From a virus: a stretch of DNA of 49,020 nucleotides. Every line of letters starts with the position of its first letter. Position 1 is the first letter of the stretch. Position numbers and translations under genes: made by a program. The stretch covers positions 1 through 49,020 of the IMG/VR virus record IMGVR_UViG_3300050011_000260. The stretch is one strand, 5' to 3'. The notes beneath the pieces were generated by a model. It made no database searches. It was given only the letters and a program-made list of their open reading frames with translations, and was not told where the DNA came from. Below are positions 35,775-48,233 of the stretch, piece by piece.

Positions 35775-37778
35775 TTAGTCGTGGATTGCCGTGACGTTGA
35801 TGGTCACGTTTGTGTGCGGAATAGAATCGTTATTTTCAATCCATACGATCACGCCATTACCCGGTGTCGCCTGATAATTGATGCAGGTGATAAGAAGTGC
35901 TGGTGACGCCGCAATGGTTGGAGTGCCGGGTGCTTCGCCACAAGTCACTGAGCATTGTACTGTGTAATTTCCATCTGCAAACGGTGTTGTGAAGTTGACC
36001 GTCCACGGTCCCGTTACTGGATTTCCTTGATTCACGGTGCCAATGTTCAAACGCACGGTCTGCGAAACAGAAGTGCCGCTGGGTGGTAAGGGAGCAGCCG
36101 AGAACAATCCTGTGCTTGCACTGTAGCCCGTGAGATATTCGAATTCGGGAGGCGACCCCGCTGGTGTTGGGGTGAACGTCTGCGGTAGAACTGGGGTCTG
36201 CCATGCGGGTATGCCGCCGACTACCGTCAACACTTGACCCGTTGTGCCGATTGGCAAACGTAATGGGCCGAGCACTGGAGGGGAACCAACAGTCAGCCCC
36301 TCGTAGATCATGTCCCCATTGGTGGTCATGGGGTTGACGAAGATGCTGCTGAGCACACCCCCCAAAGAAATGCCCGAATCCAGCGTGTTGCCGAACGTGT
36401 CAAAGGTGACGATATCACCAGCAGTGATAGTACCGCCAGCCCCCGCTGGAACTGTGACGGCTGTTGCGGCTGGGATCGAGACTGCCCCATCACCGCCGCC
36501 CACAGCAAGTGCGCGACCCGACAAGATGCCGCCGCCTAACGTAATAGACCCATAAGCAAGGATACTGCCGACCATCGTGCTGGGAGCAACCGATGTGAAA
36601 TCACTGCCGACTACCCAGACCACATTCGCTGCTTGGGCACCATTGACCAAAAGAACATCCGAGCCGCTTTCGAGCGTTACGGTGGAAGCTGCAATAAATA
36701 CAAATACTGCACCCGCATCCCCCTGAGCATCGAGAGTGATGCTCGTCGGGATATCCAAAGCCCCGCCTGAGAATACGCCAGCGTAGTAGACACCCGCTCC
36801 CCCGCCACCGTCGTTGGCGCTGAGGTCTGCGAGACCCGACTGAGTTGGGGTCAAACCACTATAGTAGAGAAATGCGGTCTGACCATCAGTACGTGCTGCT
36901 GGGGCATCCGCATTGTCCACTGTTGCAGTAGGTGGATTAAACCCAGTGATGCTCATGGTCGGGGCTGAACCGATAACACCACCCGCTATTGAGGTTGCTG
37001 GATCGGCGTTTGTGATTCCACTGTACGCCAATAAAGCATAATTAGCTGACGATCCCAATTCCGTAGTGACGGGCGATGGAGGCGATACAACCCCAGTTAA
37101 TTGAACAAAAGCCCCTGTACCCTGAACACTGCACAATTGAGTGGTGGCGAGGCAGCCTGAGATGCGGGAAAAATCGTTAAAGCCTGCAAGAAATATCGCC
37201 GTCACAACATTTGGAGCGGTGAAAGCCACGACGTACCCAACGGTCTGATCGAGACTAGGACTTGATGGTCGAGTGAGAGTGATGCCGCCCGGGGTCACGG
37301 ACGATAAGTAAACTTCCTGACCGACACTGCTGAGAGAAAATTCGCTGTTTGGATCGATGTAGGTAAAAAGTCCACTGAATGCAATAGTACCGGGATGCCC
37401 AGCGTCGATAGGGGATGTTAGGAAACCTTGAGCGGACAAGGATGGGGTCGGCGGTGACCCACCGCCAGCATCGGCATACTCTGCCGTCAGAACACCGCCG
37501 ACACTGTAGAGGTGAACAAGCGGGGCACCTAACTGAAGGTTTACACCAGCAGTAGCGGTTGCACCTGTATTTAGCAACGATGAGTCGATGACGCCGTTCG
37601 GGTTGAGAACTACAGGCACGCCATACGATGCGGCTCCAAGCGAAGGCACGGTCACACCATCACAAGCCGTCACAATGTCAATCAGATTCGATCCCGTCTG
37701 ATTAGGCACGATGGGAGGCGCGGGCTGTTGGTTTGCCTTGACGTTAAAAACGCACACGCGGGTGGGTCCGTTCCCCAT
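35775..37778 (-). CDS. Fibre-like virion protein with DUF3494 ice-binding domain, 667 aa
   Basis: Residues ~240-445 match the DUF3494 (type I ice-binding, beta-solenoid) family: ANYALLAYSGITN, GGVIGSAPTMSITGF, GVFSGGALDIP, SITLDAQGDAGAVFVF, NGAQAANVVWVVGSDFTS and GSILAYGSITL...GRALA in the expected order. No signal peptide. The N-terminal ~235 residues are Gly/Ser/Thr/Pro-rich; residues ~480-530 (NPMTTNGDMIYEG, RLPIGTTGQVLTVVGG) are typical of phage fibre linker repeats. A downstream virion-type gene (38352) and an HNH insertion surround it. Likely binds ice, glycans or a surface. Confidence 0.82.
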   Translation of the reverse strand: MGNGPTRVCVFNVKANQQPAPPIVPNQTGSNLIDIVTACDGVTVPSLGAASYGVPVVLNPNGVIDSSLLNTGATATAGVNLQLGAPLVHLYSVGGVLTAEYADAGGGSPPTPSLSAQGFLTSPIDAGHPGTIAFSGLFTYIDPNSEFSLSSVGQEVYLSSVTPGGITLTRPSSPSLDQTVGYVVAFTAPNVVTAIFLAGFNDFSRISGCLATTQLCSVQGTGAFVQLTGVVSPPSPVTTELGSSANYALLAYSGITNADPATSIAGGVIGSAPTMSITGFNPPTATVDNADAPAARTDGQTAFLYYSGLTPTQSGLADLSANDGGGGAGVYYAGVFSGGALDIPTSITLDAQGDAGAVFVFIAASTVTLESGSDVLLVNGAQAANVVWVVGSDFTSVAPSTMVGSILAYGSITLGGGILSGRALAVGGGDGAVSIPAATAVTVPAGAGGTITAGDIVTFDTFGNTLDSGISLGGVLSSIFVNPMTTNGDMIYEGLTVGSPPVLGPLRLPIGTTGQVLTVVGGIPAWQTPVLPQTFTPTPAGSPPEFEYLTGYSASTGLFSAAPLPPSGTSVSQTVRLNIGTVNQGNPVTGPWTVNFTTPFADGNYTVQCSVTCGEAPGTPTIAASPALLITCINYQATPGNGVIVWIENNDSIPHTNVTINVTAIHD

Positions 37779-40689: not shown

Positions 40690-40764
40690 TGGAGCGAGTG
40701 GTGGGATTCGAACCCACGACCTGATGGTTGGGAACCATCCATTCTACCGCTGAACTACACCCGC
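40690..40764 (-). tRNA. tRNA-Gly(CCC)
   Basis: Acceptor GCGGGTG/CACTCGC, stem GATGG/CCATC with loop TTCCCAA (CCC), T73 and encoded CCA. Confidence 0.92.
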
Positions 40765-40910: not shown

Positions 40911-40985
40911 TGGAGCGGAATGCGGGGCTCGAACCCGCGACCTCTTCCTTGGCAAGGAAATGTTCTACCACTGAACTAATTCCGC
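40911..40985 (-). tRNA. tRNA-Gly(GCC)
   Basis: Acceptor GCGGAAT/ATTCCGC, loop TTGCCAA (GCC), T arm GCGGG-TTCGAGC-CCCGC, T73 and CCA. Confidence 0.93.
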
Positions 40986-41053: not shown

Positions 41054-41128
41054 TGGAGCGAGTGGCAGGAATCGAACCTGTCTCTGTGGCTTGGAGGGCC
41101 ACGGCACCGCCAGTTATACCTCACTCGC
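41054..41128 (-). tRNA. tRNA-Gly(TCC) with atypical anticodon loop
   Basis: Acceptor GCGAGTG/CACTCGC, stem GTGGC/GCCAC, loop CCTCCAA giving TCC but with C at position 33, where U is near-universal. T73 and CCA encoded. Confidence 0.82.
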
Positions 41129-41136
41129 TTGTAAAC

Positions 41137-41529
41137 TTTTGCGTCAGCCCTGTAAGCGGGGTTCTGTGAGCATTGCTGCCCGACGATCATTCCTCTAGGC
41201 GTTGAGTTACCCCAACGCTCAAGCACTCTACCCGCTGATTGATAACGACCCGAACAGAGTCTCTCAGCCTATTTGAGCTTGCACCGCGTAGAGGTTGCCC
41301 GTTTCACCCGAACTAAATCGGTTCGTCACTGTTGCCCTATTCGTCAACCTTCCATCGGGGGACATGGTTGGGCTTTCGCGCTTCCATGCACACCCGGCTA
41401 CCTCGGTTGCTCGGTTTCTCTCCGATACGCTGTTCTATGGTGCCCCGACTTTCCTCCCCTGCTGGCGTCTCTCCCACTTAGAGGCGGGCAACTACCAGTC
41501 AGCGGCAATCGTCTGGCACTGACACAAAA
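41137..41529 (-). ncRNA. rnpB: RNase P RNA, bacterial type
   Basis: About 393 nt. The ends pair as an 11-bp P1 (TTTTGTGTCAG with CTGACGCAAAA). From 5' to 3' the RNA carries GCCAGACGATTGCCGC, GGGGAGGAAAGTC (P4 5' strand), CCATAGAACAG, GGTGCAAGCTCAAATAGG (P10/P11), TTGAGCGTTGGGGTAAC, CTAGAGGAATGATCGTC (J5/15) and ACAGAACCCCGCTTACAG (P4 3' strand), all in the order of bacterial type A RNase P RNA. It processes 5' leaders of pre-tRNAs. It is embedded in the tRNA array between tRNA-Gly and tRNA-Cys. No RNase P protein gene is seen in the window, so it would use the host protein or act alone. Confidence 0.92.
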
Positions 41530-41612
41530 CTTAAATTTTCAAAGAACAACTAATATACGAGGCAAAAGTCTTCTTTCACCCTCGAACACCCAATAGACTA
41601 GGCGTTCAATCT

Positions 41613-41690
41613 TGGAGCACGGGGTGGGAATCGAACCCACTGTCTACGGCTTTGCAGGCCGAGCCTTTCATGCCATTCAGGTTCCCGCGC
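41613..41690 (-). tRNA. tRNA-Cys(GCA)
   Basis: Acceptor GCGCGGG/CCCGTGC, stem TCGGC/GCCG with loop CTGCAAA (GCA), T arm GTGGG-TTCGATT-CCCAC, T73 (a Cys identity base) and CCA. Confidence 0.9.
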
Positions 41691-44243: not shown

Positions 44244-44325
44244 TCTCGGGGTGGTCGGGAATCGAACCTAACTTCCTTCCTACGCAACTCTGTAGGTGTG
44301 CTTCCGTTACACCATCACTCCCGAG
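44244..44325 (-). tRNA. Degenerate tRNA-like element
   Basis: Ends pair (CTCGGG/CCCGAG) and a TTCGATT T loop is present, but the T stem is weak, the anticodon loop is 8 nt without U33 (CCTAC-AGAGTTGC-GTAGG) and no CCA follows. First element on the transcript from the 44449 promoter. Confidence 0.4.
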
Positions 44326-46307: not shown

Positions 46308-48233
46308 CTAGTTCATGCTAAGTTCACAGGCCCCTCCTGAGCAGGCGGGTTCGTGTGTGCCCGTAGTCATGTCTTCTACTTCGTAGCTCGGAAGAAGCGC
46401 CCAGTCGAGGACGGGCATTTTCTCCCTATGCGTCTGATACTCAGTTTCGGTGATTTCCGTGTTCGGGGCCTGCTTGTAAATGTGATCGGAATGCGGTAAG
46501 AAGCTCACACCACCCATCACATCAAAATGCTTATAGACCCAAGCGCACACGTCTATCCACTCGTGCTGCCTCACATAAATTGTACATGAGGGGTTATGCT
46601 CTGTCCAGTGCTGTTTGTACGTGAGGTACAGTTCGAGTTGCTGAATTGCATTGAGATCGTTTCGGCATAGAGTTGAAGCCGGGGCTTCCAGCGGAAAGTA
46701 GAAAACGTCCACATCGTTTGGTTTGTCTCTTTCTGGCTCGTTGAAAATTCCCATCGCCTTCAAGAAGGCACCTACGGGATTCTTCCTGTCTTCACGCACG
46801 CCACGCCAAATGTAACGCGAATAACGAGTGTGAATTCCGGGTGAGCAATCAACAAGCTGACTTACTGTGCCACTAGGTTTGACGCACGTGATTGCCGCAG
46901 GCACGGGGATGCCAAGTTTACCCGCCCATTCTGTGGCGACCTCAATGGCGTATAGACGAAGCTCATCGAGCAGTGTTTCCAATGCGGGACCGTTCGTGGA
47001 CATCGTTTTATTGTCCATGATGCCTGTCAAGCTAACGCCAAGGAGCCGCTCTTCTTCAGCGTTCTTCTGCCATTCTTTGCGTAAGTAACGGAATCCAGTC
47101 AGTGTGGACTGGAGGCAGCCAAGAATGACAGCCCTGCGAATCTTTTGCTTGATAGTTGCTCTGGTATCTTCAGGACGAACAACCACCTCGGTCAGATTGC
47201 AGAAGCCTTTGGGGCGCAGGAGAATTTCAGCACAAGGGTTCAATCCGAAATCGTAGTAATTCCCTTTCTCATCTTTGATCGCACGGCGACCATTCTTCGC
47301 CACGTGCTTGCGGGCACCCTCGCGGTTGAACAGACCCCGCTCACCAGACTTCGATTCGACCAAAGTGAGAAATTCCTTCATGAAAACCTCAACATCAGGC
47401 TTTTCCGTGTAGGCAACGGAGTTGTTTGCCAGCCGACGCCATGGGGTTGCGTCGTCGTCGTACCAGCGCCCGTTCTTGGCGTTACGCATACGGTCATCGC
47501 TCAGATTTGAGAGCGAGATCATGGCTGACCGCCTCACACCGCCGCAGACCACCACATCGGCAATCATACACATTAAATCATGACACTCCAACGAGTTAAG
47601 CTTACGCCCAGCAGCGTTCTGAAATAGCTTTACGGTGAATTTGAAGAGTCGGTCGAGGGGCTCTGGGCCGCTTGCTCGCCCACCAAAAGTCTTCAGGACA
47701 CTACCTGCGGGGCGCACGACGGATAGGTCCCATGAGGGAATCAGTCCACCGTACAGCAAACTGATGAGTTGGCGTAGCGATGACGCCCAGCCGATCTTGG
47801 AGTCCTTGACCTTGATGATGGTCTCAGTCGGATAAAACGCCTCGGCAATCTCCGGCATTTTGTTGACATGTTGGCGCTCAACGCTAAAGCCGACGCCAGT
47901 GCCGCACATACTGATGTACATCGCTTCGTCAAAAGCTCTAGGATCATCGACGTTGATATAGGAGCAATTGTAACCAGCACAATTGTCTTTCTCCAGAGCC
48001 TCGCCTGCGGTCATGAGGGCTCGCATGGACGGCATGACTTCCATGCTGAGGATGGCCTGTTCTAGTTCTGCGGCGGTCACTTCCCGATCAGCTTTGGGGA
48101 TGCGAGGTGTGAAGAAGTTGATGTAACGATGGACGGTTTCGTCCCAGTTTTCCCTTCGGTTGAGTTCTGGTATCCAGCGGGCGTAGCGAGACTTATGAAT
48201 ATATTGTTGATACGGGGACATCTTGCGTGTCAT
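46308..48233 (-). CDS. nrdJ: Class II (B12-dependent) ribonucleotide reductase, monomeric type, 641 aa
   Basis: NCSYINVDDP near residue 90 and SMCGTGVGFSVER (about 110) form the substrate and first-cysteine region; LNPCAEILL (about 329-337) is the finger-loop N-x-C-x-E; IMDNKTMSTNG and VKPSGTVSQLVDCSPGIH follow. The end HEPACSGGACELS has the CxxxxC pair that re-reduces the active site in Lactobacillus-type RTPR. No NrdB partner is needed; adenosylcobalamin comes from the host. Reduces ribonucleotides for phage DNA synthesis. ATG overlaps a short upstream frame (TAATG). Confidence 0.92.
   Translation of the reverse strand: MTRKMSPYQQYIHKSRYARWIPELNRRENWDETVHRYINFFTPRIPKADREVTAAELEQAILSMEVMPSMRALMTAGEALEKDNCAGYNCSYINVDDPRAFDEAMYISMCGTGVGFSVERQHVNKMPEIAEAFYPTETIIKVKDSKIGWASSLRQLISLLYGGLIPSWDLSVVRPAGSVLKTFGGRASGPEPLDRLFKFTVKLFQNAAGRKLNSLECHDLMCMIADVVVCGGVRRSAMISLSNLSDDRMRNAKNGRWYDDDATPWRRLANNSVAYTEKPDVEVFMKEFLTLVESKSGERGLFNREGARKHVAKNGRRAIKDEKGNYYDFGLNPCAEILLRPKGFCNLTEVVVRPEDTRATIKQKIRRAVILGCLQSTLTGFRYLRKEWQKNAEEERLLGVSLTGIMDNKTMSTNGPALETLLDELRLYAIEVATEWAGKLGIPVPAAITCVKPSGTVSQLVDCSPGIHTRYSRYIWRGVREDRKNPVGAFLKAMGIFNEPERDKPNDVDVFYFPLEAPASTLCRNDLNAIQQLELYLTYKQHWTEHNPSCTIYVRQHEWIDVCAWVYKHFDVMGGVSFLPHSDHIYKQAPNTEITETEYQTHREKMPVLDWALLPSYEVEDMTTGTHEPACSGGACELSMN

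Follow-up and report, generated by a model that had tools for sequence, protein, structure and literature searches.

Related systems

The RNA subunit of RNase P belongs to the small number of ribozymes that occur almost universally, and its gene is viewed as cellular and organellar; bacterial RNase P RNA is able to act without protein at high Mg2+, and the yeast mitochondrial RNase P RNA, RPM1, is encoded apart from its nuclear-encoded protein. The subject of the present analysis is an RNase P RNA gene that is located within a tRNA array on the minus strand of the virus record IMGVR_UViG_3300050011_000260 from IMG/VR (hereinafter the window, which comprises the entire 49-kb record, positions 1 to 49,020). 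RPM1 is transcribed as fMet-RPM1-Pro (PMC3797045), that is, the RNase P RNA gene lies inside a tRNA transcription unit, as in the phage arrays; unlike the phage RNA, RPM1 is organellar, its mature RNA is in fragments, and its origin is different. With bacterial rnpB (RF00010), the phage RNA shares the full-length fold, the bulged U of P4, L15 GGU, the conserved core and covarying helices, but it differs in being phage-borne, in its location inside tRNA arrays, in that no rnpA is found in the carriers and, in the huge-phage clade described below, in that P13/P14 are mostly missing.

The huge phages of a published survey, like the carriers of this RNA, have many tRNAs (up to 67), along with synthetases, CCA-adding enzymes and tRNA-modifying enzymes, but, unlike for the carriers, the main text of the survey makes no mention of RNase P (PMC7162821); the RNA genes in that survey were called by tRNAscan-SE and ARAGORN, tools that are blind to RNase P RNA. 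Similarly, two megaphages of about 0.5 Mb resemble the carriers in their large tRNA complement (74 in the example) and in possessing a transfer-messenger RNA (tmRNA), but a screen against the full set of Rfam models found only these RNAs in them and no RNase P RNA (PMC8172020); not every megaphage, therefore, carries an RNase P RNA. In general, viral-genome pipelines that seek only tRNA and tmRNA overlook RNase P RNA.

No report of a phage RNase P RNA was found in the open literature; bioRxiv and the bulk of subscription journals lay outside this search, so that priority is unproven. A blastn search with six phage RNAs, which may miss divergent copies, yields no convincing RNase P RNA among the 50,697 INPHARED records, only weak or host-derived matches. 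The match in "Acinetobacter phage MD-2021a" is among host genes in a prophage flank; the rnpB-like match in "Microcystis phage MaAM05, complete genome" (MW495066.1, L351) is surrounded by fliM, fabI, engB and glyS, and the record looks like a fragment of a bacterial chromosome; the matching "Bacteriophage sp." entries from human faeces, one of which was inspected, are scaffolds without annotation or verification.

The RNase P RNA gene of the window

A cmscan search of Rfam identifies positions 41140-41522 of the minus strand as an untruncated match to RF00010 (151.4 bits against a gathering score of 100 bits, E 6.6e-47, model positions 1-367 of 367), which is the top-scoring model of its clan at this location. 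An 11-bp helix P1 read from the sequence extends the RNA ends to 41137-41529, the span given in the earlier note on this DNA. The alignment to the covariance model (CM) shows both P4 strands, L15, the core joining regions and the AAAUAGG and ACAGNRA segments, all in order, in agreement with the full-length bacterial-type RNase P RNA of that note; P3 and P9 are enlarged. P13/P14, which are common but not required in class A, are missing in the window and in most of the related phages but present in L076 and L077. Given that the loss of P13/P14 is "not unusual" among bacterial RNase P RNAs (PMC8172020), it does not exclude the RF00010 membership of the window RNA.

The RNA sits between tRNA-Cys and tRNA-Gly of a one-strand array. 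ARAGORN identifies 23 tRNAs in the window, every one on the minus strand, the same as the RNase P RNA, and the window also encodes a class II ribonucleotide reductase (RNR), a UvsX-like recombinase, a helicase, an exonuclease, a RuvC-like resolvase, and HNH and homing endonucleases. The location of the gene inside a tRNA array of phage DNA is thus borne out (Table 1).

Table 1. Coordinates of the RNase P RNA, its parts and neighboring features in the window
Feature	Position	Strand	Basis
RNase P RNA, class A, without P13/P14	41137..41529	-	RF00010 match and 11-bp P1 read from sequence
P1 5' strand UUUUGUGUCAG, partner 41137-41147	41519..41529	-	sequence; P1 covaries in 18 phage RNAs
P1 3' strand CUGACGCAAAA	41137..41147	-	sequence
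P4 5' strand AAAGUCGGGG, bulged U	41443..41452	-	RF00010 match; alignment of 18 RNAs
P4 3' strand CCCCGCUU	41154..41161	-	RF00010 match; alignment of 18 RNAs
Core motif CAAAUAGG (J11/12-J12/11 side)	41268..41275	-	AAUAGG invariant in 18/18 phage RNAs
L15 GGGU, expected partner tRNA 3' CCA	41230..41233	-	invariant in 18/18 phage RNAs
8-nt tail/leader between P1 and tRNA-Gly; putative self-release site 41129|41128	41129..41136	-	sequence; relatives similarly spaced; cleavage inferred
Weak sigma-70-like promoter match, about 22 nt upstream of RNA 5' end	41552..41579	-	9/12 consensus; consensus match only
tRNA-Cys(gca), upstream neighbor, CCA encoded	41613..41690	-	ARAGORN; Cys-RNase P-Gly order kept in much of the clade
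tRNA-Gly(tcc), directly downstream, CCA encoded	41054..41128	-	ARAGORN; sequence
tRNA-Gly(gcc), downstream, CCA encoded	40911..40985	-	ARAGORN; sequence
tRNA-Gly(ccc), downstream, CCA encoded	40690..40764	-	ARAGORN; sequence
Class II RNR, clade marker	46308..48233	-	phrog_367, E 4.5e-170; tree

Conservation in a clade of huge phages

A search with the RNR protein of the window as the query identifies 74 loci in IMG/VR, and a scan of 42 of their records for RF00010 detects 22 with a match above the cut-off, including contigs of 463, 456, 332, 317 and 265 kb. In the RNR tree, all carriers fall into a single clade (support of 100*) of 19 rows, 16 of which are positive, two are short fragments, and one is a 127-kb record that is negative; the RNA is not found in any of the more distant RNR relatives scanned within the same set. 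The largest members of this clade (hereinafter the window clade) encode 49-69 tRNAs, with 69 and 64 in the two largest contigs, and four large records contain terminase genes (G002, G005, G014 and G010). The order Cys-RNase P-Gly recurs in independent metagenomes (L096, L095), and none of the 38 carrier records tested contains a 16S rRNA gene. In this clade of huge phages, the array-borne RNase P RNA constitutes a lineage trait. In a subgroup with few or no adjoining tRNAs, a tmRNA gene (RF00023, 117-135 bits) is located near the RNase P RNA (L080:688-1045, L083:2243-2596 and L085:2756-3107).

In a MAFFT alignment of 18 divergent window-clade RNAs (mean column identity of 43%), analyzed with the RF00010 structure plus P4, 90.4% of the cells pair, and both sides change in 66 of the 88 pairs, where cells count sequences rather than events. 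The covariation score is 0.605, compared to 0.21 for shuffles, none of which is as high (0/500), and 0.09-0.11 for slid structures; because the structure comes from a single member, the slid control is biased in its favor, but the margin is nonetheless large. In P4, 100% of the cells are paired, with compensatory changes in five of the eight pairs; P1 covaries across the 18 RNAs as well. The L15 GGGU and AAUAGG are invariant in all 18, as are many other core residues. Judging from these comparisons, the RNA structure is under purifying selection, and function is strongly implied by the conservation. The earlier note had cited the full pairing of P1 as an argument for function; that argument is supported and gives way to the far stronger comparative evidence of the compensated pairs and clade-wide retention. 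The phage copies represent natural divergent ribozymes that include compensated changes in the near-invariant catalytic helix P4.

Carriers outside the window clade

Further carriers were sought by two exact-pattern scans of IMG/VR, and 50 of the matches were then scanned with the CM. The matches are of two kinds, namely rnpB without nearby tRNAs, which in many cases probably represents the flank of a host or the end of a prophage, and RNase P RNA inside dense one-strand tRNA arrays. Outside the window clade, there are at least 16 more array-borne copies, several of these in terminase-confirmed phages, and a terminase is present in 16 of the 27 further carrier records. In three large terminase-bearing contigs (G047, G055 and G067), no tRNA is located within 1.5 kb of the RNase P RNA. 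The earlier note considered such a gene rare, which holds in that there is no convincing case among the catalogued phages, but not within this clade, where it is a lineage trait, nor in the several other lineages in which it is present.

The window RNR family is absent from most of the further carriers. Terminase identity is 55-59% among three window-clade phages and 25-38% among G062, G063, G064, G066 and G068, and the similarity between the two groups is at best marginal (E 0.004). The flanking tRNAs also vary by lineage, being mostly Cys/Gly in the window clade and Leu/Arg, Asp/Ser, Val/Arg or Ala/Met elsewhere. Given the dissimilar terminases, the usual lack of the window RNR family and the different flanking tRNAs, the trait was gained by phages, or exchanged between them, more than once. 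The RNase P RNA of L284 (G086) is nearly identical to that of L096 (G001) and has the same Cys/Gly neighbors, and the RNR of L284 is 34% identical to that of the window, which suggests that the array has been exchanged between the phages of these two lineages. The phylogeny of the RNase P RNA has low signal; it points to several transfers and provides no reliable hosts. The RNA of L276 (G057) groups with actinobacterial, mostly Acidimicrobiaceae, sequences, which suggests capture from an actinobacterial host.

Among individual records, LNEN01000305.1 (identical to IMGVR_UViG_2623620416_000002) is a 147-kb terminase-bearing phage contig with an RNase P RNA that is binned in a Cytophagales metagenome-assembled genome with its own, different rnpB; binning is weak evidence of the host. 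A 7-kb contig of phage or other origin (L103/L261, IMGVR_UViG_3300045837_000152) contains an RNase P RNA along with 27 tRNAs.

Spacing and the protein partner

Among the 30 deduplicated array-borne copies, 22 have a same-strand tRNA at a distance of 10 nt or less on at least one side (downstream in 16 and upstream in 14), and none has a neighboring tRNA on the opposite strand. No tRNA is found within 50 nt of bacterial rnpB at any of 50 control loci, mostly from Bacteroidota, actinobacteria and clostridia. In G065/G069, the end of tRNA-Leu coincides with the start of the model match, and tRNA-Arg starts within the last four, unpaired, model positions. In the window, the upstream gap to tRNA-Cys is 88 nt, counted from the end of the model, and no terminator-like hairpin is found between the RNase P RNA and tRNA-Gly. 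Because in about half of the arrays a tRNA starts within 10 nt past the 3' end of the RNA, cleavage of the tRNA leader would also make the 3' end of the ribozyme, and the array would probably process itself in part. The most straightforward reading is that the genes are co-transcribed and that RNase P, by its own cut at the next tRNA, frees the 3' end of the RNA.

The earlier note pointed to the rest of the genome as the place to look for an RNase P protein. The PF00825 profile, run against 59 carrier records (23 and 36), some of which are incomplete and which include the 463- and 456-kb contigs, detects no RnpA above the cut-off: it is absent in all 23 records of the first set and below the cut-off in all 36 of the second, with a single sub-threshold match that contains four stops; the positive control succeeds in 10 of 14 genomes. 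Thus, the carriers do not seem to encode a complete enzyme, and the partner of the phage RNA is likely to be the host RnpA.

Predicted function and alternatives

Taken together, these observations are best compatible with a working class A RNase P RNA that associates with the host RnpA and matures phage tRNAs in a partly self-processing array, a reading that we consider quite likely. The RNA would be transcribed within the phage tRNA array and then fold, most likely borrowing the small RnpA protein of the host; it would remove the 5' leaders of phage tRNAs, which would furnish the capacity to process tRNA precursors made in a burst, and a cut at the leader of the adjoining tRNA would free its own 3' end. 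We infer expression, the use of host RnpA, catalysis and self-release from sequence. The broader proposition that such a self-processing polycistronic array, with a borrowed or different protein, has arisen on several occasions among unrelated huge phages and renders their tRNA supply independent of the host rnpB RNA could equally well be right or wrong. Several points weigh against the tRNA maturation function. Six window-clade copies, all in one subgroup, lack any tRNA neighbor within 1.5 kb; most copies in the clade lack P13/P14, which may reduce activity; thermodynamic folding of the window RNA is unremarkable (z -1.4), plain minimum free energy folding being uninformative. Furthermore, the weak promoter-like match and the 88-nt gap make co-transcription with the upstream tRNAs uncertain, so that the window RNA may start its own transcript from that match, and the missing RnpA could also mean that an unrelated phage protein is the partner.

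The lack of a detectable RnpA in the carriers is also compatible with a decoy that sequesters the host RnpA and shuts down host RNase P without catalysis on phage tRNAs, in line with the titration of host factors being a common phage strategy. A decoy would need only the protein-binding part, yet P4, the L15 GGGU that contacts CCA and AAUAGG on the T-loop-binding side are invariant or compensated, and the 49-69 tRNAs of the phage itself would be left short of processing; accordingly, we regard this possibility as improbable. Somewhat less probable still is a switch of substrates, whereby the phage RNA would take the host RnpA pool mainly to act on tmRNA or on host or phage mRNAs and not to supply tRNAs: substrates of this kind are known for RNase P (PMC11143913), and in one subgroup (L080, L083 and L085) the gene is near tmRNA and away from tRNAs, but in most lineages it is found inside tRNA arrays, with differing tRNAs on either side.

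The position of some phage copies, such as L276, near bacterial RNAs in the tree could alternatively reflect a host rnpB that was captured along with tRNA genes, is functionless and has not yet been lost. Such a passenger would hardly be kept across the whole clade at deep divergence and with pervasive compensatory change, which makes this explanation very unlikely. The least probable alternative, to which we give almost no credence, is an assembly chimera or host contamination at the window locus. IMG/VR does hold rnpB matches without tRNA arrays, many of them probably host flanks, and some GenBank records labelled as phage seem to be bacterial, but the recurrence of the same gene order in independent metagenomes, the terminases in window-clade and other carrier records, and the lack of 16S rRNA genes refute for the clade the host-chromosome or chimeric origin that the earlier note had raised.

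Huge phages are known to take over translation, and the spread of RNase P RNA among them, by the dozens, adds tRNA maturation by a catalytic RNA to this takeover. It also opens to testing the reason why 60-70 tRNA genes are kept in huge phages and the question of whether, during infection, RNase P of the host is limiting or under attack.

Other features of the tRNA array and the window

CCA is encoded in all 18 window tRNAs that were checked, which lends no support to the suggestion of the earlier note that these tRNAs are unusual, and in 271 of the 321 tRNAs of the arrays. Many window tRNAs (e.g., those at 41613, 41696 and 6582) have a similar trailer, A(G/A)NTT(G/T), directly after CCA, perhaps a processing signal. 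A tRNA-like gene at 44247-44321 (minus strand) is assigned a four-base anticodon (agtt) by ARAGORN and is either a possible frameshift suppressor or a miscall. A terminator-like hairpin (9 bp and a T tail) is present at 42290-42266 (minus strand), just upstream of tRNA-Val inside the array. Finally, the product of the minus-strand gene at 35775-37778 is 667 aa long and contains an ice-binding-like domain (PF11999, E 3e-27), here in a phage.
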